From positions 1 through 29,808 of the IMG/VR virus record IMGVR_UViG_3300030098_000381: a stretch of DNA of 29,808 nt, one strand, 5' to 3'. The stretch comes from a virus. A program made the translations under genes and the position numbers. Shown one piece after another: positions 6,183 to 28,867 of the stretch. Position 1 is the stretch's first letter. Each line of letters opens with the position of its first letter. The notes below the pieces were generated by a model. That model was not told where the DNA came from. It made no database searches and was given only the letters and a program-made list of their open reading frames with translations.

Positions 6183-6199
6183 TTTTTTTTCTATATTTG
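6174..6199 (+). promoter_or_regulatory. Possible promoter of the sigma-factor block
   Basis: TATATTTG (6192-6199) is an exact TAnnTTTG box with a TTG at 6174-6176, spacer 15, slightly short. It is preceded by eight T residues and contains TCTAT, partly resembling the late boxes found at 8983 and 10773. ATG 6204 lies only 5 bases after it. It would start the run that includes the sigma-like gene. Confidence 0.4.
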
Positions 6200-6203
6200 A
6201 AAT

Positions 6204-6560
6204 ATGCAAAAACCTATATATGCAAATAAGCAGCATGAAGTATTATTAGACAATTATATAAAGCTGATTAAAGAATTTGTAAGGGATGTTTCAAATGAAA
6301 CAAGATGGAGCAATTATCAAGAAATATTTAACGTAATAATAGAATACCATAATACTTATGGAAATCACAGAACTAAAAACAACTGGCATGACTGGTTAAT
6401 GATATTACCTATTAATCTTTCAGTAATGACAAATGGATATTTAGCAGGTATAGAAACTAAACGTAACGCTGCTATAGTAAAGTCTTATAAAGTTATATTA
6501 AATGATATGCTGCATGATTTGGTAGATGGATTAGAAAAACTACAACCAATTAATGAATAA
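6204..6560 (+). CDS. Hypothetical protein, 118 aa
   Basis: A 118-aa helical protein rich in aromatic residues (RWSNYQEIFNVIIEYHNTYGNHRTKNNWHDWLMILPINLSVMTNGYLAG) with a Leu-rich C-terminal helix (MLHDLVDGLEKL). It is the first gene after a TAnnTTTG box and overlaps the sigma-like gene by 8 bases. Tight coupling to the sigma gene raises the possibility of a regulator or partner of that factor, but no family is recognised. Confidence 0.55.
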   Translation: MQKPIYANKQHEVLLDNYIKLIKEFVRDVSNETRWSNYQEIFNVIIEYHNTYGNHRTKNNWHDWLMILPINLSVMTNGYLAGIETKRNAAIVKSYKVILNDMLHDLVDGLEKLQPINE

Positions 6561-7107
6561 GATTTATCATATAATATCTAAGCTATCAGCTAAATTTAAA
6601 GAAATGGCTTATGGATTAACAAATGATGAAGAAGCAATTAATGATAGCGTACAAGAATTAATGCTATATTTTTTAACGATCAATCCAAAGGTATTAATGG
6701 ATATATATGAAAAGGATGGTGAAGAAGGATTAATAAGATATGGTGCAGTTGCTTTAAGAAGGTCATTAACAAGCCCACGTAGTGCATACTATTATAAGTA
6801 CAGAAAGTATTACAATAATATTTCTAGTCATTATACAACAACAGTAACGCAAGAAAACCCTCATAAAAGCATTTACAATATACCAGAAACAATAGACGTT
6901 AACTATGACTTTGAAAAGCTAGATAAAATAGATGCTGAACTAGAAAAATTATATTGGTACGATTCTAAAGTTTTTCAGCTTTATTATTACGAAGGTAACA
7001 CATTAGATTCACTCGCTAAGAAAACAGGAATAAGTAGAAACAGTTTGTTTTCTACAATAGATAAGGTGCGTGAAATATTAAAAAAAGAATTAAATGAAAA
7101 TAACTAA
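6553..7107 (+). CDS. Sigma-70-family-like RNA polymerase sigma factor
   Basis: A 184-aa protein built like a small two-domain (ECF-type) sigma factor. The N-terminal region, residues 12-45 (FKEMAYGLTNDEEAINDSVQELMLYFL), resembles sigma region 2.1-2.2. After a Tyr-rich middle, residues 122-178 look like region 4: an acidic helix, then a helix-turn-helix (GNTLDSLAKKTGISRNSLFSTIDKVREILKKEL). It would redirect host RNA polymerase to phage promoters. It is encoded just before the late genes, which share an unusual promoter-like box, so it is the natural candidate for the late switch. Region 2.4, which reads the -10 box, is not clearly recognisable. It overlaps both neighbours. Confidence 0.65.
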   Translation: MNKIYHIISKLSAKFKEMAYGLTNDEEAINDSVQELMLYFLTINPKVLMDIYEKDGEEGLIRYGAVALRRSLTSPRSAYYYKYRKYYNNISSHYTTTVTQENPHKSIYNIPETIDVNYDFEKLDKIDAELEKLYWYDSKVFQLYYYEGNTLDSLAKKTGISRNSLFSTIDKVREILKKELNENN

Positions 7108-8601: not shown

Positions 8602-8984
8602 TGAAGTTTGTAATAAAGTGTGATAAAGATAAGCAAAGTCTGATAAACTATCTAAAAGAATTACAAAGTGATTATATAGTAGATGTAAAGAAACAAAGAA
8701 ACAATAGATCAAATATGCAGAATAGTTATTACTGGGCTTGTATAGTACAACCATTAGCACAAGAGATAGGGTACTTTCCTGATGAAATGCATGATATACT
8801 AAAAGTAAAATTTGCAAGTGAATGGCAAAGTATAGAAGTAAATGATAAACAAGTAGGGCTGCAAGTAGTCAATAGTTCAGCTAGAATGAACACAAAAGAC
8901 TTTGAAATATATGCAGATCAAATAAGAATATGGGCATTAAGTGAATTAGGTATTAGATTAATGCTACCAAATGAATACGAATAA
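8601..8984 (+). CDS. NinB/Orf-like recombination mediator
   Basis: A 127-aa protein with the pattern of lambda NinB (Orf): KQRNNRSNMQNSYYWACIVQPLAQEIGYFPDEMHDILKVKF near residues 34-74, then SARMNTKDFEIYADQIRIWALSELGIRLMLPNEYE. Lambda Orf is a recombination mediator that helps load recombinase onto SSB-coated DNA. The presence of SSB and NinG-like genes supports this reading. It is the last gene before the first late box, with only 15 bases to the terS start. Confidence 0.65.
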   Translation: MKFVIKCDKDKQSLINYLKELQSDYIVDVKKQRNNRSNMQNSYYWACIVQPLAQEIGYFPDEMHDILKVKFASEWQSIEVNDKQVGLQVVNSSARMNTKDFEIYADQIRIWALSELGIRLMLPNEYE

Positions 8985-8999
8985 TTTCTATTATATAGT
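8983..8999 (+). promoter_or_regulatory. Late promoter-like box before terS
   Basis: AATTTCTATTATATAGT directly abuts ATG 9000. The same 17 bases with one change stand at 10773-10789, abutting ATG 10790. Related boxes lie at 20547-20563, 21302-21318 and 23744-23760. In four of the five, TCTA is exactly nine bases before an ATG. I infer a phage-specific promoter, probably giving a leaderless or nearly leaderless mRNA. Confidence 0.6.
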
Positions 9000-9374
9000 A
9001 TGGAATACGAACAAAAGCGAACACAAATCAGTAAAGAAACAATGCTAGAAGCCCTTGAAAAGTCTTTAGGCATAGTTACAGAAGCGTGTGATAAAACAGG
9101 TCTTAGTAGAACGCAACACTACAAGTGGTATAAAGAAGATGAAGCGTATCGTAATTCAGTTGATAGCATAGATAGTAAATTTATAGACTTTGCAGAATCT
9201 CATTTAAAGAAACAAATAGAAAAAGGTAGCACACAAGCTACTACATTCTTTTTAAGAACAAGAGGGCGTAAACGTGGGTATAGCGAAAAACAAGAAGTAG
9301 ATATTACTTCAGGTAATGAACCAATAACTATAGAATTTAATATAGGTGCGAATAAAACCAACAATAACAGTTAA
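9000..9374 (+). CDS. terS: Terminase small subunit (putative)
   Basis: A 124-aa protein located directly upstream of and overlapping the large terminase gene. An N-terminal helix-turn-helix (MLEALEKSLGIVTEACDKTGLSRTQHYKWYKEDEAYRNSV) is followed by a helical oligomerisation segment (FIDFAESHLKKQIEKGSTQATTFFLRTRGRKRGY) and an acidic tail. This is the usual plan of small terminases, which recognise the packaging site and regulate the motor. It is the first late gene, with a late box touching its ATG. Confidence 0.75.
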   Translation: MEYEQKRTQISKETMLEALEKSLGIVTEACDKTGLSRTQHYKWYKEDEAYRNSVDSIDSKFIDFAESHLKKQIEKGSTQATTFFLRTRGRKRGYSEKQEVDITSGNEPITIEFNIGANKTNNNS

Positions 9375-10656
9375 ACAAGACGAAGCCTTTCAATACCTAA
9401 AAGATACTGAAACAAATGAAATACTTTTCGGTGGAGGTGCAGGAGGTGGCAAAAGTTGGTTTATATGTGCAGCAATAATATCTAGTTGTATTCAGTACAA
9501 AGGAATAAGAGTATTACTTGGCCGTGCTAAATTAGATACATTAAAGAAAACAACATTAAATACTTTTTTTGAAGTATGCAAACAATGGAACTTAACAACA
9601 CCTGAACACTACATATACAATGCACAAACAAACATTATTAAATTTTTTAATGATTCTGAGGTTGTTCTTAAAGACTTGTTTCAGTATCCTTCTGATCGTA
9701 ATTTCGATTCTTTGGGTTCTCTTGAGCTTACTATGGCAGCGATTGATGAGTGCAATCAGGTTACAGAAAAAGCGAAAAACATAGTAAGTAGTAGAATAAG
9801 ATATAAGCTAGATGAATATAATCTTATACCTAAACTTATATTAACTTGCAATCCTTCAAAGAATTGGGTATATACAGAGTTCTACAAAAAACATCAAGAA
9901 GGTAAACTACCAAAATACAGAAAGTTTATACAAGCCTTAGTAGATGATAATCAGAATATATCAAGGCATTACAAAGAACAGCTTAATAAATTAGATGAAC
10001 TAAGTAAACAAAGACTATTATTTGGTAATTGGGAATATGACCTTAGTAAAGATTCACTTATAGACTACAATGCAATATTAGGAATATTTGACAATAAAGG
10101 CATAGATGGTGATAAATATATATCTTGTGATGTAGCACGTTTTGGGGCTGATAGAACAGTTATTATGCTCTGGCAAGGGCTACACCTTAGATACATCAAA
10201 ACTATGCTTAAAAGTGCTGTAAATGATGTTGTAGATGAAATAAAGAAATTACAACAAGAGAATGGTGTACCATTGAGAAATATAATTGTAGATTCAGATG
10301 GTGTAGGTGGTGGTGTTACTGATTACCTTAGATGTCAGCAATTTCAAAACAATGCAAGAGCTTTGAAAGGTGAAAACTTTCAGAACTTAAAAACACAATG
10401 CTATTATAAGTTAGCAGAACTTATTAACAATGGTCAAGTGGGTATAAACTGTAATAATGTAAATGCAAAGAATGACATTATAGAAGAACTTGAACAGGTA
10501 AGAATGAAAGACATAGACAAAGACAATAAACTACAGATATTACCAAAAGATACAGTAAAAGACATAATAGGTAGATCACCTGACTATTCAGATGCTATGG
10601 CAATGCGTATGTATTATGAAATTGATAGTAACTATGGTAGGTATTTTGTACAATAA
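9346..10656 (+). CDS. terL: Terminase large subunit
   Basis: A 436-aa packaging ATPase-nuclease. Visible motifs are Walker A GGGAGGGKS (29-37), Walker B MAAIDEC (D134, E135), motif III LTCNPSKNWVYTEFY (166-180), and the RNase-H-like nuclease acids D262 (SCDVARFGADRT), D316/D318 (IIVDSDGVGGG) and D413/D417 (SPDYSDAMAM). It drives DNA into the prohead and cuts concatemers. The start is GTG 9346, overlapping terS by 29 bases. Homology-like sequence begins at once (TVKQDEAFQYL), which supports this start. The length is normal for the family. A 133-base hairpin-rich gap follows. Confidence 0.95.
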   Translation: MRIKPTITVKQDEAFQYLKDTETNEILFGGGAGGGKSWFICAAIISSCIQYKGIRVLLGRAKLDTLKKTTLNTFFEVCKQWNLTTPEHYIYNAQTNIIKFFNDSEVVLKDLFQYPSDRNFDSLGSLELTMAAIDECNQVTEKAKNIVSSRIRYKLDEYNLIPKLILTCNPSKNWVYTEFYKKHQEGKLPKYRKFIQALVDDNQNISRHYKEQLNKLDELSKQRLLFGNWEYDLSKDSLIDYNAILGIFDNKGIDGDKYISCDVARFGADRTVIMLWQGLHLRYIKTMLKSAVNDVVDEIKKLQQENGVPLRNIIVDSDGVGGGVTDYLRCQQFQNNARALKGENFQNLKTQCYYKLAELINNGQVGINCNNVNAKNDIIEELEQVRMKDIDKDNKLQILPKDTVKDIIGRSPDYSDAMAMRMYYEIDSNYGRYFVQ

Positions 10657-10660
10657 GAAA

Positions 10661-10716
10661 AGGGGCTGCACAAGGCAAACCCCTAGATAAGAAAATGGAA
10701 ACAGTAATTTTCTTAT
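10661..10716 (+). promoter_or_regulatory. Double hairpin in the gap after terL
   Basis: Hairpin A: AGGGG (10661) with CCCCT (ending 10684), plus an inner TGC/GCA pair. Hairpin B: ATAAGAAAA (10687-10695) pairs with TTTTCTTAT (10708-10716) across 12 bases. Neither has a clean T tract. The stretch ACCCCT..ATAA..GAAAATGGAAA resembles the leader at 1350-1380, so this may be a copy of that element or a terminator-like boundary before the tail operon. A seven-codon ORF (10695-10718) lies over hairpin B. Confidence 0.45.
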
Positions 10717-10772
10717 AGAATAATGGAATGGCAAATATAACAAAATTATATTACTGTAAACTAAATATTAAC

Positions 10773-10789
10773 AATTTCTATTATATATT
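10773..10789 (+). promoter_or_regulatory. Late promoter-like box before the tail operon
   Basis: AATTTCTATTATATATT directly precedes ATG 10790 and is identical to the terS box except at the second-last base. It follows the hairpins after terL, as expected for the start of a new transcript. Confidence 0.6.
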
Positions 10790-11392
10790 ATGAAAGTAAA
10801 AATCAAGAAAAATAAAAAAGTAAAAAAGTATAAAGTAGTAGAGAAGTGGAGTGAAGTAACATTAGATGACTGGATAAAGCTAATAGCAGCAGAAGAAAAG
10901 ATAACATCTGAATCAGCTTTAGAGCAAATTAAGTTATTATCTGATATTCCAGAAAAACTAATAAAAGCCTTAAGTATAGAGAATATAGCTTTAATACTTA
11001 AGCACATAAATAGAGTTAAAGATACAGCAGAAAACAAACTATCTAAGATAATTAAAATAGAAGGTAAAGAGTATGGTTTTCATCCTGACTTATCAGAAAT
11101 AACTTTAGGTGAATATGCAGATATTGAAACATTTATAAAAAATGGAATAGACAAGCATTTACCAGAGATGATGGCTATATTGTATCGACCTATTGTTGAA
11201 AAGAAAAATGATGTGTACACTATTGAAGCGTATGATGGTAAAATAAGTATAAGATCAGAGATAATGAAAAAGATGACTGCAGAACAAGTACAAGGTGCAA
11301 TGGTTTTTTTTTGGACTTTCGTGAAAGTGTTCTTGAAGATTTTGCCATCGTCTTTGAAGGAGCAGGCGAATCAAATGCTGAAGGAGCTGTAG
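10790..11392 (+). CDS. Tail assembly chaperone-like protein (short product of frameshift pair)
   Basis: A 200-aa protein: a strongly basic N-terminus (KVKIKKNKKVKKYKVVEKW), then a helical body with LDDWIKLIAAEEKITSESALEQIKLLSDIP and HPDLSEITLGEYADIETFI. It is the first gene of the tail operon. Near its end is a run of nine T residues (11304-11312). A -1 slip there leads into the open frame 11311-11580, as in lambda gpG/gpGT. Without the slip, translation ends ...FLKILPSSLKEQANQMLKEL. Tail chaperones coat the tape measure during tail assembly. The tape measure lies far downstream here, so the role is inferred from the architecture. Confidence 0.65.
   Translation: MKVKIKKNKKVKKYKVVEKWSEVTLDDWIKLIAAEEKITSESALEQIKLLSDIPEKLIKALSIENIALILKHINRVKDTAENKLSKIIKIEGKEYGFHPDLSEITLGEYADIETFIKNGIDKHLPEMMAILYRPIVEKKNDVYTIEAYDGKISIRSEIMKKMTAEQVQGAMVFFWTFVKVFLKILPSSLKEQANQMLKEL
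11304..11312 (+). promoter_or_regulatory. Putative -1 ribosomal frameshift slippery site
   Basis: Nine consecutive T residues. In the frame of the 10790 gene this reads ..T TTT TTT TGG, a perfect X-XXY-YYZ slippery heptamer at 11305-11311. A -1 slip continues into TTG GAC TTT CGT and stays open to 11580. The fused product would be 263 residues (174 + 89). Confidence 0.65.
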
Positions 11393-11580
11393 TAAGTGAA
11401 GACTTTGCTGAACGTTGGGGCTGGTTCGGTGTGATGTATAGATTAGCTAATGCTGAAATTGTGAATTTGCAAAGAATAACTGAATTAGGTCTTTTAGAAT
11501 GCTTGACTTGGTTAAGTTATGAAACAGACTTAAATATTAATAGAAGCGTAAAATTAAATAATAAAAATGGCGGTATATAA
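11311..11580 (+). CDS. C-terminal extension of the tail chaperone (-1 frame)
   Basis: An 89-codon open frame that overlaps the 3' end of the 10790 gene and has no convincing start of its own; the only candidate is the TTG inside the slippery region. The peptide looks like a real domain: FAERWGWFGVMYRLANAEIVNLQRITELGLLECLTWLSYETDLN, with conserved-looking Trp, Tyr and ECL..L.Y residues. I read it as the extension added by -1 frameshifting, equivalent to the T part of lambda gpGT. An independent short protein is possible but less likely. The next gene overlaps its end by 14 bases. Confidence 0.65.
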   Translation: MDFRESVLEDFAIVFEGAGESNAEGAVVSEDFAERWGWFGVMYRLANAEIVNLQRITELGLLECLTWLSYETDLNINRSVKLNNKNGGI

Positions 11581-12100
11581 CAAAACGTACAATAATGTAA
11601 TTGATACTTTAAAGCAATTAGGTGCAGAACACAATCAAATACACACTACTACTACTGGTGACATATTTGATATTGATTTATCTAAAAACACAAAGTTTCC
11701 TTTGCTTCATATAAATCCTGTAAATGTATCAACAGGTCAAGCAACACTCACTTACAACTTTCAATTATTTGTAATGGATGCAGTAAGTGAAAAAGAAGAC
11801 TGGACAAATGCTAATTTTCAATCAGCAGATTATCTTAGTAATGAGCAAGAAGTTTTAAGCGAGTGTTTACAAATATGTACAGATATTATTGGAATGTTTA
11901 GGCATTCTAAATGGCAATCACAATTAGCATTAGATATTGATGCTCCTGTATATTTTGGTGAAGGTGAATTTACACTAGAACCTTTTAATGAAAGATTTGA
12001 CAATATGCTAACAGGATGGGTGTTTCAATTACCTGTAACAGTACATAATGACTTTCAGACTTGTAATATACCTGTAGATAATGATTCAATAGGAAAATAA
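11567..12100 (+). CDS. Tail or neck structural protein (tail-terminator-like, tentative)
   Basis: A 177-aa protein with mixed helices and strands: an N-terminal helix (YNNVIDTLKQLGAEHNQIHTTTTGDIFDIDLSKN), then strands (FPLLHINPVNVSTGQATLTYNFQLFVMDAV) and a C-terminal beta part (WVFQLPVTVHNDF). Size, fold impression and position among tail genes recall tail terminator or completion proteins, which cap the tail and join it to the head. No hallmark residues prove this. It overlaps the frameshift ORF upstream by 14 bases and the tiny ORF downstream by TAATG. Confidence 0.45.
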   Translation: MAVYNKTYNNVIDTLKQLGAEHNQIHTTTTGDIFDIDLSKNTKFPLLHINPVNVSTGQATLTYNFQLFVMDAVSEKEDWTNANFQSADYLSNEQEVLSECLQICTDIIGMFRHSKWQSQLALDIDAPVYFGEGEFTLEPFNERFDNMLTGWVFQLPVTVHNDFQTCNIPVDNDSIGK

Positions 12101-12165
12101 TGAAATTTAAAATAGGAAAATATAAAATAGAGATAGGTTTTTTTAAAATTACTATAAACTTATGA
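12100..12165 (+). CDS. Tiny coupled ORF, 21 aa
   Basis: The ATG overlaps the preceding stop (TAATG) and its own TGA overlaps the next ATG (ATGA), so it fits the space between two genes exactly. The peptide alternates basic and hydrophobic residues (MKFKIGKYKIEIGFFKITI), like a single amphipathic beta hairpin. Such exact coupling suggests either a real microprotein or a translational bridge for the next gene. Confidence 0.4.
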   Translation: MKFKIGKYKIEIGFFKITINL

Positions 12166-12368
12166 AAGAGGTATTTGAATTAATAGAAAGTTATGGAGTA
12201 ACCTTAGTATTATTGATAGGTGCTTTTTATGCGTTGTATCAATTCTTTTTCTTTAGTATTAGAGAGGTTAAAAAGACATTTGAGAAACACCACGAAAAGA
12301 ATGCAGAAAATATGCAAGAAGTTAAAGATAAGTTAAATACTATATTAGAGTTTCTAAAAAATAAATAA
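12162..12368 (+). CDS. Small membrane protein with coiled-coil tail (holin-like)
   Basis: A 68-aa protein with one N-terminal membrane span (residues 12-33, VTLVLLIGAFYALYQFFFFSI) followed by a charged helical tail (REVKKTFEKHHEKNAENMQEVKDKLNTILEFLKNK). This is the layout of BhlA/UviB-type holin-like proteins. It sits in the tail block, away from the endolysin. It could be a second holin or a tail-associated membrane protein for DNA entry. Confidence 0.5.
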   Translation: MKEVFELIESYGVTLVLLIGAFYALYQFFFFSIREVKKTFEKHHEKNAENMQEVKDKLNTILEFLKNK

Positions 12369-12369
12369 T

Positions 12370-12720
12370 ATGGATTACGATAAAATACTAGAAAAATTAG
12401 AAGAAATAAGCATACAGCTAGAAACTTATAATGACTATCCACAAAGTGCTACAAACAATGCTAAAAGAGCAAGGAAGTGGAAAGAAGAAAATGGTAGTGA
12501 TTGTGGTACTAGAGTTGGGTGGACTAGGTCAGCACAATTAGCAAATAGAGAAAACATAAGTAGAGATACAATAGCAAGAATGGCTTCTTTTAAAAGACAC
12601 CAACAACACAAAGATGTACCTTATTCAGAAGGGTGTGGTGGTCTTATGTGGGATGCATGGGGTGGTACATCAGGAATAGAATGGGCAATAAATAAATTAA
12701 AACAAATAGATAAAAAATAA
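12370..12720 (+). CDS. Small protein with a WGG-type structural-gene domain
   Basis: A 116-aa protein. After an acidic helix (MDYDKILEKLEEISIQL) it has SATNNAKRARKWKEENGSDCGTRVGWTRSAQLANRENISRDTIARMASFKRH...GGLMWDAWGGTSGIEWA. This pattern usually occurs as an appended domain in phage prohead-protease or capsid-region proteins (MxSFxxRH...WGG). Here it stands alone among tail genes. The function is unknown. Conserved Cys, Arg, His and Trp residues suggest a structured, perhaps metal-dependent or assembly role. Confidence 0.6.
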   Translation: MDYDKILEKLEEISIQLETYNDYPQSATNNAKRARKWKEENGSDCGTRVGWTRSAQLANRENISRDTIARMASFKRHQQHKDVPYSEGCGGLMWDAWGGTSGIEWAINKLKQIDKK

Positions 12721-12722
12721 TT

Positions 12723-13172
12723 ATGGCGGATTTAACAACAACAGTAACAGAAAGTGTTACACTAAATGGAGCAGTAAGGGGTTCTACAAATACTATAACA
12801 ACAACAGGTATAGTAGATGTCTTTGAACGTATATTAACATGTGCGCATTCAAATACAACTACAATAGCAGTCTTTGGTTCAACACCTCATGCAAGTGCAG
12901 GGGCTTTGGATGTAGAGAATTGTAAATATCTTAGGATAACAAATCTTAGTGGAGACCAAGATATAAAATTAGCATTAGTAACAACTAACACTAATTACCA
13001 AGTAACAGTAAGAGCAGGTGGTTCACATATCTTATTTCAAGCAGAAGATGCTGCAATAGGTGAAACCGATACATCTCCTGCATTTGGTACATTAGAAGAT
13101 ATTACAAGTGTACAGGTAAGACCAGCAGCAACTACAGATGTACAAGTAGAAATATTTGCAGGGCTTGTGTAA
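12723..13172 (+). CDS. Virion structural protein, beta-rich, 149 aa
   Basis: A Thr/Val/Ala-rich, almost all-beta protein (ADLTTTVTESVTLNGAVRGSTNTITTTGIVDVFERIL...). The make-up is typical of phage surface, decoration or tail-tube-associated proteins. It ends at a TAATG overlap with the HK97-gp10-like gene. A tail-tube or decoration assignment is possible; I cannot separate them by eye. Confidence 0.55.
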   Translation: MADLTTTVTESVTLNGAVRGSTNTITTTGIVDVFERILTCAHSNTTTIAVFGSTPHASAGALDVENCKYLRITNLSGDQDIKLALVTTNTNYQVTVRAGGSHILFQAEDAAIGETDTSPAFGTLEDITSVQVRPAATTDVQVEIFAGLV

Positions 13173-13717
13173 TGAATCTAAAAAACCTAGAAAAGTATTT
13201 AGAAAGTTTTGGTAAGTATGTAATTAAGCAATCACGTACTAATTTATCAAAAGCTAAAAAGAACGTCACAAAAGACCTGTATAATTCTTTAGAATTTAGA
13301 GTTGTAAAGGATGCAGGGGGTATTTGGGGGCTTGAATTTTTAATGCTAGACTATGGTGAATATATAGATAAAGGGGTTTCAGGTAGTCAAAAGAAAAGGA
13401 CTTATAAAGATTTTACAGGTAAAAAAGTAGCAAGTCCATACGAATACAGTAATAAACAACCCCCTGCAGGGATTTTAGCTAAATGGATTAGTAAAAGAAG
13501 GATAAAAGGTAGAGATAAAAAAACAGGTAGATTCATTACTAATTTAAGTTTAGCTTTTGCAATGGCAAGAACAATTAAAAGAGATGGAATAAAAGGAATT
13601 AGCTTTTTCCAAAGACCAATAGAATTAGGATGGAAAAGATTTGGAGAAGGTGTATTAGACAATATAACAAAAGATATACTTGACGCAATACCTGATGAAA
13701 TACAAAAAAATGAATAA
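13172..13717 (+). CDS. HK97 gp10-like head-tail joining protein
   Basis: A 181-aa protein with the gp10-family pattern: LDYGEYIDKGVSGSQKKR at about 59-76, then SNKQPPAGILAKWISKRRIKGRDKKTGRFI and LAFAMARTIKRDGIKGISFFQRPIELGWKRF. Such proteins form part of the neck between portal ring and tail. The N-terminal Lys-rich helix fits. It is coupled upstream by TAATG and followed closely by the 513-aa gene. Confidence 0.65.
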   Translation: MNLKNLEKYLESFGKYVIKQSRTNLSKAKKNVTKDLYNSLEFRVVKDAGGIWGLEFLMLDYGEYIDKGVSGSQKKRTYKDFTGKKVASPYEYSNKQPPAGILAKWISKRRIKGRDKKTGRFITNLSLAFAMARTIKRDGIKGISFFQRPIELGWKRFGEGVLDNITKDILDAIPDEIQKNE

Positions 13718-13720
13718 ACA

Positions 13721-15262
13721 ATGGCAATAGTAATAGATCAAAAACCAAAATACAGAACAGCAGCAGTAGGACAGGAACTAATATATGTAGTGAGTGAAGA
13801 TACTGGAGTTGTAGTAAATCAAACAGGAGTAAAATTTTTAGCAAGTGTAATTTTTAGAGTAAACAGTTCTGAAATACCTGTAGTAATAAATGGAATTTTT
13901 AAAGCAACACCAAATAGTCAAGGTGTAGCTATATTTGATTTCAGTACAATATTAGAAAATTATTTAAAACCTGATTATAATGGTGTTAACACAACAATTA
14001 ATGCTAATGAATCAATAGTATCAACTTATGCAGGTGTTGACTTTGATGAATTTGATGCTTACCATCCAATACACTTAATAGATAGATATTGTATTGCTAG
14101 TGATTCAATTAAATTTCTATCAATAGTGTTTCAAATAGAATATATGGGTGCAGATTCACAATACCCTAATCAAGTTAATACTGACCTTTCAATGGTAGGC
14201 TATATTACAAATTCAACTATATTTAATGGTGTTTTATATGAAACTGATCCTTTAATAACTTCAGCAGGTAGCCCTGATTTTGGGTATAATTTGTCAGGTA
14301 ATGATATGGTGCTTACACACTCAGGAGGAGGTTTACCTACAGCTGAAGGTAGTTACCTAACCAATTCACCTAAAAGTGTTGATGCTAGAATTACAGATTA
14401 TGGTACTTTTGCTTTCTTTAATAATATGACAAATAACCTTAATGATGTAATTACAGGCTCACCATTTCCTGCAACACCAAATACAATAAAAGAAATTAAA
14501 TTTACTTTTTATGATGCATCAGCACAATTAGGCTCAGTAATAGTTTCTAATAGACAAATAACAGGTGGATATTCAGGTAATGGTCAAGACATTGGTAGTA
14601 ACAGCTATGCAACAACTAGACTATTATATATTGGTGCTTTTCCTGCTAATTTAACAGGAGGATATGAAGCAGATAATACAACATATGCAGACTGGAATAC
14701 ACATAAAGCAAATACAGTATATTATACAGTTCAAGCATTTGGTAATGACTCAAATCCAATAGGTGAAAGCTATAGAATAAACATAATAGAAGGTGATTGT
14801 AGATTTGAACACTTTAGATTGTGTTGGCTAAATAAATGGGGTGTTTGGGATTACTACACTTTTACTAAAAAGTCAATAAGAAGCCTAACAACAAATAGAA
14901 CAAATTATACGCAACTTGGTGGTACTTGGAATAGTAAAACATATTCAAGAAGAGGTGATAGAGGTGGTAAAAAGAATTTTAGAGTTAACACAAAAGAGAA
15001 GATAACAGTAAACACAGATTATATTACTGAAGATTACAATGAGATGATGGAACAGCTAATTAACAGTCCAGAAGTCTACATCATTAATCCTTATGATTCA
15101 AGTGTAGGCTTTTTTCCAAATACAGGTAATATTAATAGACACGTACAACCTGTTGTATTAACAACGTCTAGCTTTACAAGAAAAACAAAAGGTAATGATA
15201 AGCTAATACAATACACAATAGAATTTGAAAGAGTAACTAACAGAAGAACCCAAAGAATGTAA
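13721..15262 (+). CDS. Tail structural protein, 513 aa
   Basis: A 513-aa beta-rich protein (AIVIDQKPKYRTAAVGQELIYVVSEDTGVVVNQTGVKFLASVIFRVNSSEIPVV...). It has a central Ser/Thr/Gly/Asn-rich part and a C-terminal domain with CRFEHFRLCWLNKWGVWDYYTFTKKSIRSL and a final strand set (KLIQYTIEFERVTNRRTQRM). This is a recurrent type in flavobacterial phages, placed directly before a large tail gene, and is probably a distal tail or baseplate protein. No catalytic motif is seen. It is spaced two bases from the next gene, so they are co-expressed. Confidence 0.55.
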   Translation: MAIVIDQKPKYRTAAVGQELIYVVSEDTGVVVNQTGVKFLASVIFRVNSSEIPVVINGIFKATPNSQGVAIFDFSTILENYLKPDYNGVNTTINANESIVSTYAGVDFDEFDAYHPIHLIDRYCIASDSIKFLSIVFQIEYMGADSQYPNQVNTDLSMVGYITNSTIFNGVLYETDPLITSAGSPDFGYNLSGNDMVLTHSGGGLPTAEGSYLTNSPKSVDARITDYGTFAFFNNMTNNLNDVITGSPFPATPNTIKEIKFTFYDASAQLGSVIVSNRQITGGYSGNGQDIGSNSYATTRLLYIGAFPANLTGGYEADNTTYADWNTHKANTVYYTVQAFGNDSNPIGESYRINIIEGDCRFEHFRLCWLNKWGVWDYYTFTKKSIRSLTTNRTNYTQLGGTWNSKTYSRRGDRGGKKNFRVNTKEKITVNTDYITEDYNEMMEQLINSPEVYIINPYDSSVGFFPNTGNINRHVQPVVLTTSSFTRKTKGNDKLIQYTIEFERVTNRRTQRM

Positions 15263-15263
15263 A

Positions 15264-18074: not shown

Positions 18075-18959
18075 ATGGACTATTTAAAAGGATATAATAT
18101 AAAACCCTATGAAATACAAGAACCTACAAATTTTGTTCTATTTACAGATGGAAAAACTAATGATATAGTTCCGAATCAGGCTGCTTGTGAAGCGTATGGA
18201 TATTATTATGATACAGCAACAGGTACTTGTAGATTAAAAGGCTTGAATAGTGGTTCTGTTAATGCTGCTTTAAGTAATGCAAGCAATACTGTTAGGAATG
18301 GTAGTTGTGTTAATAGTAATAATATGCTTTTAGCAGGTGTAGATAATCAATGCATACGTAGTAATAATGGCTTTATAACAGGTAAAGAAAATATAATAGA
18401 AAGCAGTAGGAATAATGCAGCAGTATTTGGTGTTAATGGTAATGTAAATAGACAAAATGAATTTGCAATAGGGGGTGGACAAAATGCAGTAGCTGACGAC
18501 CCAACTTTAGGTTCACCTACATATCTCTATACTAATAGAAAAATGTCTATTGTAGAACTATCAGGAGTAAGTACAGATAATAGTAATATCACACTAACAG
18601 TAGGTGGGGATGGATCAAGTCTTATAGATGTAAAACCAAGTTCAATTATAGGATATGAAATCTATATCACTAGACTAGAATTAGCAGGTACAGCAGCAAC
18701 AGTAGGTGATTTTTCATATAGAAACAGAAAAGGAGTAGTACAAATAGACAGTTCATATAATATGAATTTTATTGTAGGATTCACAAGAAACATAGGTAAA
18801 GTAGGTGGTGTTAATGGTACATTTACTGAAATAGATACATCATCAGGAGTTAATAAATCTTGGTCTATACAATGTAGTGATAGAAATAATGTAACAAATA
18901 TTTGGAGTGCAGTTGTGTATCTTCATGAAATAGTGTCTACTAATGTAGATATACCTTAA
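18075..18959 (+). CDS. Tail fibre with YadA-like beta-roll repeats
   Basis: A 294-aa protein. Residues about 60-140 carry degenerate repeats rich in Asn, Gly, Ser and Ala (SNNMLLAGVDNQCIRSNNGFITGKENIIESSRNNAAVFGVNGNVNRQNEFAIGGGQN). The 14-16-residue rhythm resembles the left-handed beta-roll head of trimeric autotransporters and many phage fibres. A C-terminal beta domain (about 150-290) could be the receptor-binding tip. It starts one base after the big tail gene, whose product it probably joins. Four cysteines near the repeat start are unusual for a fibre. Confidence 0.6.
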   Translation: MDYLKGYNIKPYEIQEPTNFVLFTDGKTNDIVPNQAACEAYGYYYDTATGTCRLKGLNSGSVNAALSNASNTVRNGSCVNSNNMLLAGVDNQCIRSNNGFITGKENIIESSRNNAAVFGVNGNVNRQNEFAIGGGQNAVADDPTLGSPTYLYTNRKMSIVELSGVSTDNSNITLTVGGDGSSLIDVKPSSIIGYEIYITRLELAGTAATVGDFSYRNRKGVVQIDSSYNMNFIVGFTRNIGKVGGVNGTFTEIDTSSGVNKSWSIQCSDRNNVTNIWSAVVYLHEIVSTNVDIP

Positions 18960-18970
18960 AAAAATAGAAA

Positions 18971-20527
18971 ATGGCAGATAAAACAGTAAGTTTAGAAATA
19001 AAATCAAATATAGGAGCAACAGCAAAAGACGCTAGTGAATTAGCTAATGAATTTAAGTTTATGGGTGTTTCTCTTAATGATATAAAAGGAGGATTTACAA
19101 AATTAACATCTACAGCAGCAAAGTCTTTTAGTAGTATTAAAGCAGGATTAATAAGTACAGGTATAGGTGCTTTTGTTATTGCTGTAGGTTCATTAGTAAC
19201 TTATTTTACACAAACTAAAAGAGGGGCTGAATTATTAGAAAAAAGTTTAGCAGGTTTAGGAGCTGCATTTAATGTTTTAGTAGATAGAGTGTCTAAATTT
19301 GGTGATGGTATTGTTAAGCTATTTAAAGGTGATACAAAAGGTGCTTTAGAAGATGTAAAAGGTACATTCAAAGATATAGGAGATGAAATTGTAAATGACA
19401 CAAAACAAGCCTTAGCTTTAAAAGATGCATTCCAAAAATTAAGAGATAGCAATAGAGATTTAAATGTAGAAACAGCTAAAAGAAGGTCTGAAATTGAAGA
19501 GCTTAAATTAATAGCAGAAGATGTTACAAAATCAGAAGAAGAAAGATTAGAAGCAGCAGAAAAAGCCTTTAATATAGAGAATGAATTACTTGACAAAAGA
19601 ATAGCAAATGCAGAAGAAGAATTAAGAATACAGCGAGAAGAAAACGCATTAGGTGAATCGACAGCAGAAGATTTAGACAAAGAAGCAGAACTTGAAATAA
19701 ATTTATTTAATATTAAACAAGAAAGTATAACTAAACAAATAGAACTTAATAATAAAATAAATGGCATAAAAAGAGAAGCTGAAGCAAAAGAATTAGAAGC
19801 ACTAAAAAAACTACAAGAAGCAGATAAAGAAAGGCTAGGAACGTTAGAAAAGTTGCCAGTAAGAACACAAGAAACAAATGACCAAATAATACAATCAGAT
19901 GCAGAATTAACAGAACAAATACTGGGCAACACCGACAAACAAGTATTAAGTCTTAAAGATTTAGAAGATTTTAAAATACAAGCTGCACAACAAGCACTAG
20001 ATATTGGCCTAACAGTTTTAGATACAGAAATATCATCCCTAGAAAGTTCTTATCAAAAGGAAAGGCAATTAGCAGAAAAGAATGGTGGTGATTTAGAAGC
20101 TATTGACCAAAAGTTTGAAAAGAAAAGACAAAGATTAGCAAAAAAGCAGAAGGCATTTAAAGTAGCACAAGCCTTAGTAAACACTTTTACATCTGCAACT
20201 GCTGCCTACAATCAGGCAATGGATGGAATACCTGCTCCTGCAGGTCTAATAGCAGCACCAATAGCAGCAGGTTTATCAGTAGCAGCAGGTTTAGCAAATG
20301 TAAGACAAATACTGAAGCAAGATACTGGTGGTGGTGCAGGTGGAGGTGGAGGAGGTGGAATGGGTGGAGTGGGTGGCGGTCAACCTGCTCCAGATATGCA
20401 GTCTGGTAAGTTTGAATTAACAGCACCTGCTCAAGAACAAGAGCCTGTACGTGCCTTTGTGGTAACAGATGATGTCACACAAGGACAGGATAAGCTAAGC
20501 ACAATAAGACGTAATGCAGTAATATAA
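18971..20527 (+). CDS. Tail tape measure protein (short)
   Basis: A 518-aa protein. The N-terminus has hydrophobic helices (FSSIKAGLISTGIGAFVIAVGSLVTYF, 54-80; LAGLGAAFNVLVDRVSKFGDGIVKLF). The middle (about 150-300) is a long charged coiled coil (EEERLEAAEKAFNIENELLDKRIANAEEELRIQ). Near the end is the typical FKVAQALVNTFTSATAAYNQAM...GLIAAPIAAGLSVAAGLANVRQIL, followed by an extreme Gly-rich stretch. Tape measures set tail length; at about 0.15 nm per residue this implies a short tail near 80 nm. It ends the tail operon. Opposite-strand open frames over it are shadows of the coiled coil. Confidence 0.85.
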   Translation: MADKTVSLEIKSNIGATAKDASELANEFKFMGVSLNDIKGGFTKLTSTAAKSFSSIKAGLISTGIGAFVIAVGSLVTYFTQTKRGAELLEKSLAGLGAAFNVLVDRVSKFGDGIVKLFKGDTKGALEDVKGTFKDIGDEIVNDTKQALALKDAFQKLRDSNRDLNVETAKRRSEIEELKLIAEDVTKSEEERLEAAEKAFNIENELLDKRIANAEEELRIQREENALGESTAEDLDKEAELEINLFNIKQESITKQIELNNKINGIKREAEAKELEALKKLQEADKERLGTLEKLPVRTQETNDQIIQSDAELTEQILGNTDKQVLSLKDLEDFKIQAAQQALDIGLTVLDTEISSLESSYQKERQLAEKNGGDLEAIDQKFEKKRQRLAKKQKAFKVAQALVNTFTSATAAYNQAMDGIPAPAGLIAAPIAAGLSVAAGLANVRQILKQDTGGGAGGGGGGGMGGVGGGQPAPDMQSGKFELTAPAQEQEPVRAFVVTDDVTQGQDKLSTIRRNAVI

Positions 20528-20546
20528 AAATCAAATAAATTAACAA

Positions 20547-20563
20547 TTAATCTATATAATAAT
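20547..20563 (+). promoter_or_regulatory. Late promoter-like box before the protease gene
   Basis: TTAATCTATATAATAAT abuts ATG 20564. TCTA again stands exactly nine bases before the ATG, although the following bases are TATAATAAT in place of TTATATAnT, so this is a variant of the late box. It lies in the 36-base gap after the tape measure gene. Confidence 0.45.
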
Positions 20564-21295
20564 ATGCCGTGTAAAAAATGTAAAGATGGAAAATATAAAT
20601 GGGGGAATACTGGTGAATGCAAGTATGACACCTTAGAAGAATGTGAAAAAGCTAATGCTGACTACTATGAAGAAGACCTTAAGACAACTAAAATAGTAGA
20701 ATTAGTAATTGAAGAAGATAATCAAGAATTAGCAATAGACGCTATAAGTTTAGTTTCAGCACCCGCCATAGAACAGGACTTTGTTTACTTTGGGAAAGAA
20801 AAACATAACTTGACTTTCGCAAAAGTAGATGAAGAAAAACGTATGTTGGTCAGTCCAGCCCTTATCCCAAATAAGCAAATCTTCCGATACGACCCACAAA
20901 AAGATCAAGAATTTTATGTCTATTTTAGCCCTGAAACAGTACGCAAATCAGCAGAACTTTATTTAAAACATAATAATCATCATAAGGCAACCTATGAACA
21001 CCAAGATAGAGTATCAGGTGTTTTGACTACAGAATCTTGGATAATAGAAGATCCAAAAATGGACAAGTCAAGACTTTATGGTTACAATTTACCTAGAGGA
21101 ACGTGGATGGTTTCTATGTCTATACAAAATGATGATTTATGGCAAGAAATTAAAGCAGGGAATCTAAGAGGTTTAAGTATTGAAGGGTACTTTGTCGATA
21201 AGATGCAAAATATGTCACAGCAACAACCTACTGATGAAGAAATACTTATAGCACTTAATGAAATTATACAAGAATCTGAAAAATCAAATAAATAA
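20564..21295 (+). CDS. XkdF-like prohead protease
   Basis: A 243-aa protein. The core, residues 92-212, matches the XkdF/prohead serine protease pattern: KRMLVSPALIPNKQIFRYD, FYVYFSPETVRKSAELYL, HKATYEHQD (H146 a catalytic candidate), ESWIIEDPKMDKS, LPRGTWMVSMSIQNDDLWQEIKAGNLRGLSIEGYF (S205 a nucleophile candidate). It would cleave scaffold and capsid proteins during maturation. The N-terminal 25 residues form an odd four-cysteine patch (CKKCKDGKYKW...CKYDTLEEC). Encoded just upstream of scaffold and capsid, in the usual order. Confidence 0.75.
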   Translation: MPCKKCKDGKYKWGNTGECKYDTLEECEKANADYYEEDLKTTKIVELVIEEDNQELAIDAISLVSAPAIEQDFVYFGKEKHNLTFAKVDEEKRMLVSPALIPNKQIFRYDPQKDQEFYVYFSPETVRKSAELYLKHNNHHKATYEHQDRVSGVLTTESWIIEDPKMDKSRLYGYNLPRGTWMVSMSIQNDDLWQEIKAGNLRGLSIEGYFVDKMQNMSQQQPTDEEILIALNEIIQESEKSNK

Positions 21296-21301
21296 ACTAT
21301 A

Positions 21302-21318
21302 TATCTATTATATAGTAT
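21302..21318 (+). promoter_or_regulatory. Late promoter-like box before scaffold and capsid genes
   Basis: The stretch contains TCTATTATATAGTAT (21304-21318), the late box in full, but here the next base is C, so no ATG is formed and the start codon is 25 bases further on at 21343. This copy argues that the motif acts on DNA as a promoter and is not merely part of a start-codon context. Confidence 0.6.
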
Positions 21319-21342
21319 CAACTTAAATTTAAGAATACAATT

Positions 21343-22056
21343 ATGGACATAAAAAAGCAAATCAAAATAGCACTTGGTCTAGAGAATGATGAAGTGAAAT
21401 TAGGGTGGCAATCCAAATCAGAGGATGGCACTATTTTAGTATCTACTGCTGAAGAACTAGAAGCAGGAGTAGATATATCTGTACTTACAGAAGATGGAAC
21501 AACTATACCTTTACCAATAGGTACTTATAAGCTAGATACTGGCGTTTCTTTTAGAGTAGAAGAAGAAGGTGTTGTTGCAGAAGTAATCGAATCTGAAACT
21601 GAAGAAGAAGATACTGCTGAAGAAGAAGATTTATCTACTGACTTAGCAGAAGAAGACAAAGAAGATTACGATGAAGAAGATGATAGAAAAGAAACAGCAG
21701 ACGTTGGTGATTGGAGAGGAATGGAAAAAAGAATCCAAAACCTTGAAGATGCAGTAGCTGACCTTAAAAGACAAATCGGTGAAACAGGTGATGTTGAAGA
21801 AATGTCAGAAGAAACTGAAGAGCCTTCAACAAATCCTAAATCAATAAAAACAACAGAAGTAGTTGAATTTTCAGCAGAAGAAGAAATTGAAAAATTAAAA
21901 GCTGAAAACGAAAAACTTAAAACTGAACTAAATGCAAAACCTGCTGACAATCCAGTTAATGTAAACAAATTTTCAACTGACAAACCTGTATTAAGCAGAA
22001 AAGATTATAATAAACTTTCTAAAAGAGAAAGATTTTTATACAATTTAAACAAATAA
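21343..22056 (+). CDS. Capsid scaffolding protein (putative)
   Basis: A 237-aa, extremely acidic, low-complexity protein. The N-terminal domain (1-80) is strand-rich (KLGWQSKSEDGTILVSTAEELEAGVDISVLTEDG). Residues 85-125 are almost pure Glu/Asp. There are two coiled-coil segments, about 125-150 (MEKRIQNLEDAVADLKRQIG) and 185-205 (EEEIEKLKAENEKLKTEL). The C-terminus is basic (LSRKDYNKLSKRERFLYNLNK), as expected for binding the capsid protein. Position between protease and capsid gene agrees with a scaffold that is digested during maturation. Confidence 0.7.
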   Translation: MDIKKQIKIALGLENDEVKLGWQSKSEDGTILVSTAEELEAGVDISVLTEDGTTIPLPIGTYKLDTGVSFRVEEEGVVAEVIESETEEEDTAEEEDLSTDLAEEDKEDYDEEDDRKETADVGDWRGMEKRIQNLEDAVADLKRQIGETGDVEEMSEETEEPSTNPKSIKTTEVVEFSAEEEIEKLKAENEKLKTELNAKPADNPVNVNKFSTDKPVLSRKDYNKLSKRERFLYNLNK

Positions 22057-22082
22057 ATATTAACTAAAAAACAAATAAAACT

Positions 22083-23015
22083 ATGGCTTTTAACGTAACG
22101 AGTAATTTCGCGGGGACGGCAGCGGGGATGTATATTTCTGCAGCATTAAAGGAAGCGAAATCACTAGATTTTATAACGCAAATGACTAATGTTCGTTATA
22201 AATCAAATGTACAATCTGTTGCTGGGGCAACATTATTAAGAGATGCTACGTGCGACTTTACAGATCACGGAACTCTCACAATGACTGAAAAGGTACTTGA
22301 AGTAAAACCTTTGCAAATAAATATTGATCTTTGTAAGCAAAACTTGGTGAGCAGCTGGGAATCTTTACAAATGAGAGGGCCTGAGGCTATGCCTCCTGCT
22401 TCTTTTGAAGATTATGTAATTTCTTATATGGGTTCAACTATTGCAGAAGGAGTAGAAAATTCAATATGGAATGGTGTAACAGCTACAAATGGTGAATTTA
22501 CAGGATTCTTAGGTGCAGCAGTTGGTTATTTATTACCAGGTGTTGATGCAACTGTAATTCAATCATCAGCTTCAGGTGCTTATACAGCAGCAAACATTAT
22601 AGCTAACTTACAGACTTTAACTTCTGATATGGCTGCTAACGTACCTGCAATACTAGGCAAAGAAGATTTATACATATACATGAACAATAAAACTTATGCT
22701 TTCTATATTTCAGCAGTATCTACATTAGGATATGTGAATGCATACAACATGAATGGCGACTATGAGCCTGTATTCGAAGGATACAAAATTGCAGTTTGCC
22801 CTTCTTTACCAGATAACCAAATGGTAGCAGCTCAAAAATCAAATCTTTATTTTGGTACGGATCTGGTTTCGGACTTTGGAGTAACAGGAACAGGGCCTAG
22901 AATAGCCCTAATGGATATGTCAGGCCTAGATGGCTCAGATAATATTCGAGTGGTTTGTAGATTCTCTGGTGGTGTTCAGACTGGAGTTGGTGCAGATATA
23001 GTAAGACAATCATAA
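22083..23015 (+). CDS. Major capsid protein (HK97-fold type)
   Basis: A 310-aa protein directly after protease and scaffold. Features of HK97-like capsid proteins include KEAKSLDFITQMTNVRYKSNVQSV near the start, a helical spine region around SFEDYVISYMGSTIAEGVENSIWNGV (102-127), and a C-terminal beta domain with EPVFEGYKIAVCPSLPDNQMVAAQKSNLYFGTDLVSDFG. The gene has a strong A-rich leader (TTAACTAAAAAACAAATAAAA) and a less biased codon choice at the start. A terminator follows, as expected for the most abundant virion protein. Confidence 0.8.
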   Translation: MAFNVTSNFAGTAAGMYISAALKEAKSLDFITQMTNVRYKSNVQSVAGATLLRDATCDFTDHGTLTMTEKVLEVKPLQINIDLCKQNLVSSWESLQMRGPEAMPPASFEDYVISYMGSTIAEGVENSIWNGVTATNGEFTGFLGAAVGYLLPGVDATVIQSSASGAYTAANIIANLQTLTSDMAANVPAILGKEDLYIYMNNKTYAFYISAVSTLGYVNAYNMNGDYEPVFEGYKIAVCPSLPDNQMVAAQKSNLYFGTDLVSDFGVTGTGPRIALMDMSGLDGSDNIRVVCRFSGGVQTGVGADIVRQS

Positions 23016-23026
23016 TATTACAAAAT

Positions 23027-23054
23027 AGGGAGTTGAAATATACTCCCTGTTTTT
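23027..23054 (+). terminator. Intrinsic terminator after the capsid gene
   Basis: AGGGAGT (23027-23033) pairs with ACTCCCT (23042-23048) across an 8-base loop, followed by GTTTTT. It lies 12 bases after the capsid stop. It could also attenuate read-through into, or stabilise the 5' end of, the next gene's mRNA (ATG 23075). Confidence 0.7.
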
Positions 23055-23074
23055 AACTTTTAAAACAAAAAACA

Positions 23075-23656
23075 ATGGCATGTACAAATTTAACGCGCGG
23101 AAGAGGATTAGATTGTAATAGAGTCAGTGGTGGCGTAAAATACATCTACTTTTCTGTTTATGATGAAATCACATCTTTTGCTTATGATGCAGTTGATAAA
23201 TCAACTATCGACACTATTGATTTTGGTGGTAATACTATATATAGATATACTGTGCCTAGAGGTTCAACTTCTATTACAGATACTATTACAGGAAGTGTAG
23301 AAAATGGAACAATCTTCTATACTCCAACTGTAAATATGGTAATAAATCGTCTTACGCAACAAGACCAAGAAGAGATTAAGTTATTAGGACAAACGCAAGT
23401 AAGAATATTTGCTCAACTTAATGGCACACTTGCTAATGGTCATGATATGATAGTTGCTTTAGGTATGACAAATGGAATGAGTTTAAATGCAGGTACTGCT
23501 GAAAGCGGAAGTAGCTTCGGGGACCGCTCAGGTTACACTCTGACCTTTGACGGTTTGGAGAGTGTTCCATTCGCATTCTTAGAGGATTATACTACTGAAC
23601 CATTCGATAATGCAGGATTTACTAACAAAGCGGGGACATTCCCTACTACATCATAA
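23075..23656 (+). CDS. Major structural protein, possibly the tail tube protein
   Basis: A 193-aa mostly beta protein starting MACTNLTRGRGLDCNRVSGGVKYIYFSVYDEI, with a central QQDQEEIKLLGQTQVRIFAQL helix. The C-terminal block NGMSLNAGTAESGSSFGDRSGYTLTFDGLESVPFAFL resembles the end of tube-like proteins in Bacteroidota phages. It sits between two terminators with a strong A-rich start, so it is probably made in large amounts. A major tail protein is my first choice and a capsid decoration protein the second. No better tail-tube candidate is seen in the tail block. Confidence 0.5.
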   Translation: MACTNLTRGRGLDCNRVSGGVKYIYFSVYDEITSFAYDAVDKSTIDTIDFGGNTIYRYTVPRGSTSITDTITGSVENGTIFYTPTVNMVINRLTQQDQEEIKLLGQTQVRIFAQLNGTLANGHDMIVALGMTNGMSLNAGTAESGSSFGDRSGYTLTFDGLESVPFAFLEDYTTEPFDNAGFTNKAGTFPTTS

Positions 23657-23685
23657 CACTTCACTTTAATTAGTGTTTTCATATT
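23655..23685 (+). terminator. Hairpin terminator 1 after the 23075 gene
   Basis: AACACT (23655-23660) pairs with AGTGTT (23672-23677) over an 11-base loop, followed by TTCATATTTTT. The stem starts within the last codon and stop of the gene. It is weaker than the second hairpin just downstream. Confidence 0.5.
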
Positions 23686-23696
23686 TTTCTTGATTA

Positions 23697-23723
23697 AGAG
23701 GGCTTAGGCTCTCTTTTTCTTTT
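23697..23723 (+). terminator. Strong intrinsic terminator
   Basis: AGAGGGC (23697-23703) pairs with GCTCTCT (23708-23714), one G-U pair, across a TTAG loop, followed by a T-rich tract (TTTCTTTTAT). It is a classic bidirectionally compact terminator and the clearest in the window. A late promoter-like box begins 20 bases later. Confidence 0.8.
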
Positions 23724-23743
23724 ATATGCAAATATTTAAACAG

Positions 23744-23760
23744 TTTTTCTATTATATAAT
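23744..23760 (+). promoter_or_regulatory. Late promoter-like box before the 23761 operon
   Basis: TTTTTCTATTATATAAT abuts ATG 23761, with TCTA nine bases before the ATG as in the terS and tail-operon boxes. It lies directly behind a strong terminator, so the downstream genes need a new promoter. This is strong positional support for promoter function. Confidence 0.65.
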
Positions 23761-24240
23761 ATGATTCAAGCAGTAACACAATCTTCATTTGACGCATATA
23801 TAAGTACAGAAGACAACCGTATTGACACTTCGGTAGGCTCTGATAAGATTAGGCACTTAGTAAAGTTTACTAATGACATGGACAAATCAGTTCAATATGC
23901 TTATCCTAATAATCACTTAATATACGATAGATATACTAAGATGTCTTTTACTTATAACGCTACACCAGATGTTTATACAGGTGACACAAAACTTATACCA
24001 TCAGGATATTATAAATATGAAGTTTATGAAGTTTCTTGGACAGGAGCTGTTGCAATAAGTGCAGGTAATGCACCTGTAACAGAAGATGATGTACTACCTG
24101 TAGGGCCTACACATGGAGTAGTGCAAGGATTAGTAGCAATAGGAAAATTAAATATGTCAGATTTAGCAGGAACAGGGCAAGTACAATATACGCAACATCC
24201 TGAACCATCAGGCACTAATTACATATATTACGGACAATAA
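23761..24240 (+). CDS. Structural protein, 159 aa
   Basis: A 159-aa beta-rich protein: IQAVTQSSFDAYISTEDNRIDTSVGSDKIRHLVKFTNDMDKSVQYAYPNNHLIYDRYTKMSFTYNATPDVYTGDTKLIPSGYYKYEVYEVSW..., ending YIYYGQ. It opens the operon containing lectin-like proteins and portal. It is likely a minor virion or head-decoration protein. The family is not recognised. Confidence 0.55.
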   Translation: MIQAVTQSSFDAYISTEDNRIDTSVGSDKIRHLVKFTNDMDKSVQYAYPNNHLIYDRYTKMSFTYNATPDVYTGDTKLIPSGYYKYEVYEVSWTGAVAISAGNAPVTEDDVLPVGPTHGVVQGLVAIGKLNMSDLAGTGQVQYTQHPEPSGTNYIYYGQ

Positions 24241-28857: not shown

Positions 28858-28859
28858 AC

Positions 28860-28867
28860 TAAATTTG
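28860..28867 (+). promoter_or_regulatory. TAAATTTG box upstream of second holin-like gene
   Basis: Same box as at 204-211, followed by the same GAATACTAACTAAAA. A TAnnTTTG -7 element is possible, but no clear TTG lies at the right distance upstream. Conservation between the diverged copies is the main support. Confidence 0.35.

Follow-up and report, generated by a model that had tools for sequence, protein, structure and literature searches.

Late gene groups and the box at their starts

The window, by which the whole stretch analysed is meant, comprises the 29,808 bases of a complete virus record (IMG/VR record IMGVR_UViG_3300030098_000381) from an uncultivated phage related to phages of the Flavobacteriia, and the element in question is a short box, TCTATTATATA, that stands at the starts of its late gene groups and that an earlier, sequence-only reading had proposed as a late-promoter element. 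All major genes lie on the + strand, in the order DNA-processing genes, an operon for a 118-aa protein and a sigma-like protein (6204–7107), terminase, tail, head protease, a scaffold-like gene, major capsid and portal. Since the relatives of its terminase belong to phages of Flavobacterium, Cellulophaga and Polaribacter, a Bacteroidota host is likely. The late genes form five groups, which begin with the following genes.

9000..9374, + strand: terminase small subunit (terS), first gene of late group 1 (PHROG 24579, E 3e-7)
10790..11392, + strand: post-terL gene of unknown function, first of late group 2 and leading the tail genes (PHROG 32199, E 6e-12)
20564..21295, + strand: head maturation protease (Peptidase_S78_2; PF14550, E 2e-15), first gene of late group 3
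21343..22056, + strand: scaffold-like gene, first of late group 4, with the major capsid gene next (22083–23015)
23761..24240, + strand: first gene of late group 5, a group extending as far as the portal gene at 25454

One box site lies ahead of each of these groups. The 13-mer TTTCTATTATATA occurs exactly at 8985, 10775 and 23746, on the + strand only, each of its three copies lying 15 nt upstream of an ATG; a variant, TCTATATAATA, occupies 20551–20561, before the ATG at 20564; and at the fifth site TCTATTATATA begins at 21304 and is followed by ATC, with an ATG only at 21343. The coordinates of the sequence-only reading all hold, and so do its remarks that the sites head late groups, that nine bases separate TCTA from the ATG in four cases, that one site (23748) comes after a terminator, here a terminator-like hairpin at 23696–23715, and that the box does not match TAnnTTTG, an element absent from all five late sites.

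Four copies of TCTATTATATA are present on the + strand and none on the - strand, where first-order Markov copies of the window (n = 400, maximum one copy) lead one to expect 0.035 per strand. A position matrix trained on relatives only, and rerun each time without the gene class under test, places exactly the five sites at the top of the + strand, with scores of 14–45, while no other + strand site exceeds about 4 and the - strand tops out at about 7.5. Twenty random copies mostly scored 8 or less, two of them reaching 12.7 and 15.7; the weakest site, at 20551 (14.5–21), is the only one to overlap these values, and the other four lie far above every random copy. The window holds five sites for its five late gene groups and nothing else, which confirms and completes the original observation. 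A scan of the window for sigma-70-type (TTGACA/TATAAT) promoters was uninformative, returning no more hits than in shuffled sequences.

A two-part promoter in related phages

The sequence-only reading overlooked two things, a -35 element upstream of the box and the gene of a sigma factor. Each window site is bipartite, with a -35 element (tCAAATAAA / TAAACTAAA), a fixed gap and the box TCTATTATATA, and the predicted promoters are laid out as follows.

8967..9000, + strand: late promoter 1; -35 CCAAATGAA at 8967–8975, within the end of the preceding gene; -10 TCTATTATATA at 8987–8997; putative transcription start 9000, the A of the terS ATG
10757..10790, + strand: late promoter 2; -35 TAAACTAAA at 10757–10765; box at 10777–10787; putative start 10790, the A of the post-terL gene ATG
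20531..20564, + strand: late promoter 3 (variant); -35 TCAAATAAA at 20531–20539; box TCTATATAATA at 20551–20561; putative start 20564, the A of the head maturation protease ATG
21284..21317, + strand: late promoter 4; -35 TCAAATAAA at 21284–21292; box at 21304–21314; putative start 21317, with a 26-nt leader to the ATG at 21343
23696..23715, + strand: terminator-like hairpin, directly upstream of late promoter 5
23728..23761, + strand: late promoter 5; -35 GCAAATATT at 23728–23736; box at 23748–23758; putative start 23761, the A of the ATG

In many related contigs the box stands ahead of the same operons, as the sequence-only reading had expected of a genuine element. It is kept before terS in 57 loci of relatives (several more have the variant TCTATAATATA), and the exact box is found in 58 of 64 loci at late promoter 2, 28 of 56 at late promoter 3, where most others have variants at the same place, 34 of 69 at late promoter 4, where nearly all others have TCTATTATATT-type variants, and 59 of 67 at late promoter 5. 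Relatives lacking the exact box mostly show near variants at the same position (TCTATAATATA, TCTATATATAA, TCTATTTAATA, TATATTATATA). Across 236 related loci, 303 distinct box sites lie on the coding strand and 9 on the opposite strand. The element upstream of the box has the consensus [TC][CA]AA[AC]T[AG]AA in relatives and starts at -20 in 196 of 300 sites, any other offset accounting for at most 4 sites, and AA is found at -18/-17 from the box in 300 of the 303. At terS sites the -35 element falls within the end of the preceding gene, and in two relatives (L005 and L062) a different gene precedes terS, yet the element is again there in other sequence.

The genes downstream of the 303 sites cluster into seven late families (post-terL, 80; g23761-type, 53; protease, 44; terS, 42; a ParB-like late gene, 31; scaffold, 30; an unrelated terS, 20) and two singletons. 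An independent scan of IMG/VR with a bipartite, ATG-containing pattern returned at least 119 sites; among the matches listed, 118 precede the same families and the remaining one lies in a truncated gene with a post-terL-like start. In these sequence scans the two-part element is found before late gene groups and nowhere else.

A third feature, an initiator-like pyrimidine-purine step, occurs at +12/+13 from the first T of the box in 287 of the 303 sites. Because such a step could merely echo TATG at leaderless sites, the count was repeated on sites with the ATG at least 18 nt from the box (18–51 nt), where 44 of 51 distinct leadered sites have it at +12/+13, against 0, 2 and 2 at steps 10/11, 11/12 and 13/14. 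Its retention where the start codon is distant places the likely transcription start at +13 from the box start. The ATG itself is found exactly at +13 in 145 sites, at 14–16 nt in 78 (mostly 15, a 2-nt leader) and further away in 75, and in the ParB-like class close homologues have it either at +13 or, where 13 nt are inserted ahead of it, at +26, a comparison from which it follows that the box is not part of a translation signal. With the start codon at +1, four of the five late mRNAs of the window appear to be leaderless, beginning with 5'-AUG, and the scaffold-capsid mRNA to have a leader of 26 nt. The suggestion of the sequence-only reading that the late mRNAs would be leaderless or nearly so is hence the main predicted outcome, but not a universal one, given that the 21304 site and many orthologous sites would have leaders of 2 nt or of roughly 5–38 nt from the same putative start.

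Two classes of relatives deserve separate mention. In several of them (e.g., L001:2408, L021:8298 and L157:11873, class 4) the ParB-like gene precedes terS and has its own copy of the late promoter; no homologue of this gene was recognised in the window. In others (class 6; e.g., L088:6293 and L132:8818) a different terS (MDKR.. / MNTHGGKR..) takes the place of the usual one and the late promoter is retained, the leader of about 29 nt containing the inverted repeat GATTGAATAATCAATC. A reading of the box as a symmetric operator was also considered and rejected, since the CTAT/ATAG symmetry exists only where G follows the box and is not conserved.

A phage ECF-type sigma factor and a parallel system in a cultivated phage

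Upstream of the late genes lies the operon of the sigma-like protein, a candidate member of the extracytoplasmic function (ECF) group, with a predicted promoter of its own.

6192..6203, + strand: host-type -7 element TATATTTG (6192–6199) and the 4 nt before the ATG at 6204, predicted promoter of the sigma-carrying operon
6204..6560, + strand: gene for a 118-aa protein of unknown function that opens the sigma operon and is conserved alongside sigma
6553..7107, + strand: ECF-type sigma factor, 184 aa, the proposed late sigma (TIGR02937, PHROG 1740, predicted structure)

The assignment draws on several comparisons. The sigma70-ECF model TIGR02937 covers residues 7–180 of the window protein with 39.2 bits, below its curated cut-off of 42.9, and matches 51 of 51 non-redundant homologues (best E 2e-12); PHROG 1740 (RNA polymerase sigma factor) is matched at E 2e-7. 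An AlphaFold model (mean predicted local confidence, pLDDT, 77) consists of two confident helical domains joined by a low-confidence, disordered linker, and a Foldseek search of the PDB with this model is led by ECF sigma factors, the first being M. tuberculosis ECF sigma L (E 2e-4). The protein encoded at 6553–7107 has the composition of ECF (group IV) factors, which contain sigma2 and sigma4 domains only in some 160–200 aa. Searches by sequence gave nothing significant in the PDB and no tblastn match among 50,697 phage records, and in bacterial and archaeal genomes they reached only two contigs of metagenome-assembled genomes (L356 and L357), which resemble binned phage contigs and identify no host. 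A syntenic homologue of the sigma gene is present in 28 of the 28 relatives that have over 5.5 kb of sequence ahead of terL, and in the Flavobacterium phage 11b group (83 loci) there is neither a sigma profile match nor a + strand box. The 118-aa protein adjoins sigma in about 110 loci and is a candidate partner or anti-sigma factor.

The element TAnnTTTG, with nn free, lies exactly 4 nt before the start codon of the sigma operon in 66 of 68 distinct upstream sequences. In F. johnsoniae transcription begins 4–5 nt after this element (PMC6847099), and by analogy with that spacing the sigma operon mRNA should also be leaderless. Leaderless starts are the exception in that host, as 87% of its leaders exceed 10 nt (PMC6847099).

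The cultivated Nonlabens phages P12024L and P12024S, found by a search with the major capsid protein (28% identity), provide a parallel, and the P12024L sigma was reached only through this capsid relationship. P12024L_35, annotated as Sigma-70 region 2 (PF04542) and matching ECF models, is encoded shortly before terL. The motif AAC-N16/17-CGTTAWTA precedes seven late genes, which start at 179, 3031, 5412, 22090, 24771, 26011 and 27612; the distance from the C to the ATG is 12 nt in six cases and 11 nt in one, and the number of sites with this ATG spacing expected from Markov copies is 0.15. These sites, of the form AAC-N16/17-CGTTAATATA-N2-ATG, are kept in several related contigs and show the marks of ECF promoters, namely AAC at -35, a gap of about 16 nt and CGT at -10. 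P12024L (Inhavirus) shares with the window an ECF sigma at the corresponding place before terL, the geometry AAC-N16/17-C...ATATA-N2-ATG and, at six of its seven sites, the leaderless placement; it differs in its -10 sequence, CGTTAATATA as against CTATTATATA, and in a major capsid protein only 28% identical. Aligned on the C, CTATTATATA-NN-ATG and CGTTAATATA-NN-ATG are equal in length. The same geometry with different -10 sequences and diverged sigma factors in two lineages is as expected if sigma and promoter change together. No published description of P12024L late promoters was found in a literature of which coverage was partial. Around 2994, 5377 and 24737 of P12024L (L358), CAAATATA lies near or in the -35 element and corresponds to the host -7 element TATATTTG on the opposite strand, hinting at back-to-back early and late promoters at these three sites.

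Proposed mechanism, alternatives and known systems

Taken together, the two-part motif with its fixed geometry, the confinement of this motif to late starts, the initiator-like step and the co-occurring sigma gene make it very probable that the box serves as -10 element in a bipartite late promoter read by the host core RNA polymerase with the phage ECF-type sigma encoded at 6553–7107. In this model, host sigma A would transcribe the g6204-sigma operon from its TAnnTTTG promoter, and the phage sigma would then bring RNA polymerase to the five late promoters, which follow the pattern [TC][CA]AA[AC]T[AG]AA - 11 nt - TCTATTATATA - NY - R(+1). Placement of the start codon at +1 would yield four leaderless late mRNAs, and the scaffold-capsid mRNA would keep its 26-nt leader; the pairing of sigma with these promoters, the exact start, the timing of expression and translation from a 5'-AUG are what we infer from this arrangement. 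The late-promoter, -10-type role that the sequence-only reading gave to the box is thereby supported and extended by a second element at a fixed distance and by a syntenic ECF sigma in relatives, and amended in that the promoter is bipartite and not the box alone. A broader claim, to which we give somewhat less than even credence, is that the late programme runs on leaderless mRNAs by design: a dedicated ECF sigma would fix the start on the A of AUG, virion proteins would be made through leaderless initiation unlike most host messages, and sigma and promoter would have co-diverged between the window (CTATTATATA) and P12024 (CGTTAATATA) lineages.

Several observations weigh against the sigma-based reading. 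By definition ECF promoters have AAC at -35 and CGT at -10 (PMC3426412), and the -10 of the window lineage is CTAT, not CGT, its AAC often being AAAT; what the window family keeps is the AA[A/C]-N16-C geometry, with CTAT standing where CGTT would be and with AAAT at many sites. The sigma model has a low predicted TM-score (pTM, 0.46), and for that reason its domains are trusted and their arrangement is not. Five sigma-bearing loci have no exact box or just one, and the variants TCTATAATATA, TCTATATATAA and TCTATTTAATA in some relatives mean that the box is not required letter for letter. The window and P12024L sigma factors, moreover, resemble each other only weakly (a profile comparison gives a probability of 60% over 50 columns), which leaves a common origin of the two unproven.

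Among other explanations, the one with the most in its favour, although an improbable one, is that a phage activator sits on the upstream element and directs the host primary sigma to the box, in which case the sigma-like protein would be that activator (cf. ArpU/RinA-type late regulators and the Mor/C proteins). Pfam does match only region 4 of this protein, and weakly, and there is a weak match to a PHROG Q-like antitermination family; TIGR02937, however, spans residues 7–180 and hence both region 2 and region 4, the spacing of the two promoter elements is constant, and the late -10 lacks TAnnTTTG, an element that this phage does use at its sigma operon. P12024L, in turn, pairs canonical ECF-type AAC...CGT sites with a sigma that bears region 2. 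Transcription by a phage RNA polymerase was rejected, as no RNA polymerase gene was recognised among the scanned window proteins.

The exact placement of the ATG at +13 in 145 sites would also suit a translation-initiation or mRNA signal, but this is very unlikely, since box, -35 element and pyrimidine-purine step are kept at many orthologous sites with the ATG 15–51 nt away, and in ParB-like homologues the ATG can stand at +26. These promoter elements, retained with a distant ATG, contradict a translational reading. Chance retention of an A+T-rich string by common descent might be invoked in a region of about 70% A+T, the more so because orthologous sites in related phages are not independent; it is nonetheless scarcely credible for five non-homologous sites in one genome with four exact 11-mer copies, for a box nearly absent from the other strand and retained before the unrelated terS that replaced the first, and with a parallel system in P12024L.

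The kind of system proposed here is already known, because the gp36-type ECF sigma factors of the podoviruses phiEco32 and SU10 read a -10-type motif, tAATGTATAtA, 6–8 nt upstream of the start (PMC4281155). As proposed for the window, a phage ECF sigma there sends the host RNA polymerase to a short motif before middle and late operons; phage group, host phylum and motif are different, and the paper names no -35 element and reports no leaderless placement. The late and middle sigmas T4 gp55 and SPO1 gp28/gp34 are essential for late transcription by the host core enzyme (PMC9429907). Compared by description, they resemble the proposed window sigma in being phage sigmas that work with the host core enzyme. 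T4 late promoters have only TATAAATA and need the sliding clamp, and the SPO1 motifs differ. The Bacteroidota housekeeping element TAnnTTTG (PMC6847099) is used by the window phage at the sigma operon, where it abuts the start codon, whereas the late promoters lack it at both elements. Four things are new here, namely a -35 element, promoters set against the start codon in one operon after another, the group of hosts and a second sigma/promoter pair; no earlier description of such promoters in Bacteroidota phages was found, literature coverage being partial.

The predicted circuit of host promoter, phage ECF sigma and late promoters is complete and testable, and would apply to a large group of uncultivated marine phages whose host phylum has unusual promoters and translation starts. 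It leads one to expect leaderless mRNAs as the templates for highly expressed virion proteins in bacteria that do without Shine-Dalgarno pairing, and the parallel system of the cultivated P12024L makes a bench test of this prediction possible. Sharing one geometry but differing in their -10 sequences, the two natural sigma/promoter pairs should also be useful in studies of -10 recognition by ECF factors.

Further observations concern other parts of the window. Its ends, 1–1145 and 28657–29805, are diverged copies, 77% identical, of a holin-like gene and a metallophosphoesterase gene. A single metallophosphoesterase is present in the stretch examined of the related contig L357, and the record may on that account join two strain variants of a circularly permuted genome, the alternative being a true duplication. 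At both ends the host-type TAAATTTG (204–211 and 28860–28867) lies about 20 nt upstream of the holin-like gene, by sequence a leadered host-sigma promoter. Lastly, a 12-pair terminator-like hairpin (23022–23074) separates the major capsid gene from a gene at 23075 that has no late box, and expression downstream of this hairpin may rely on read-through.

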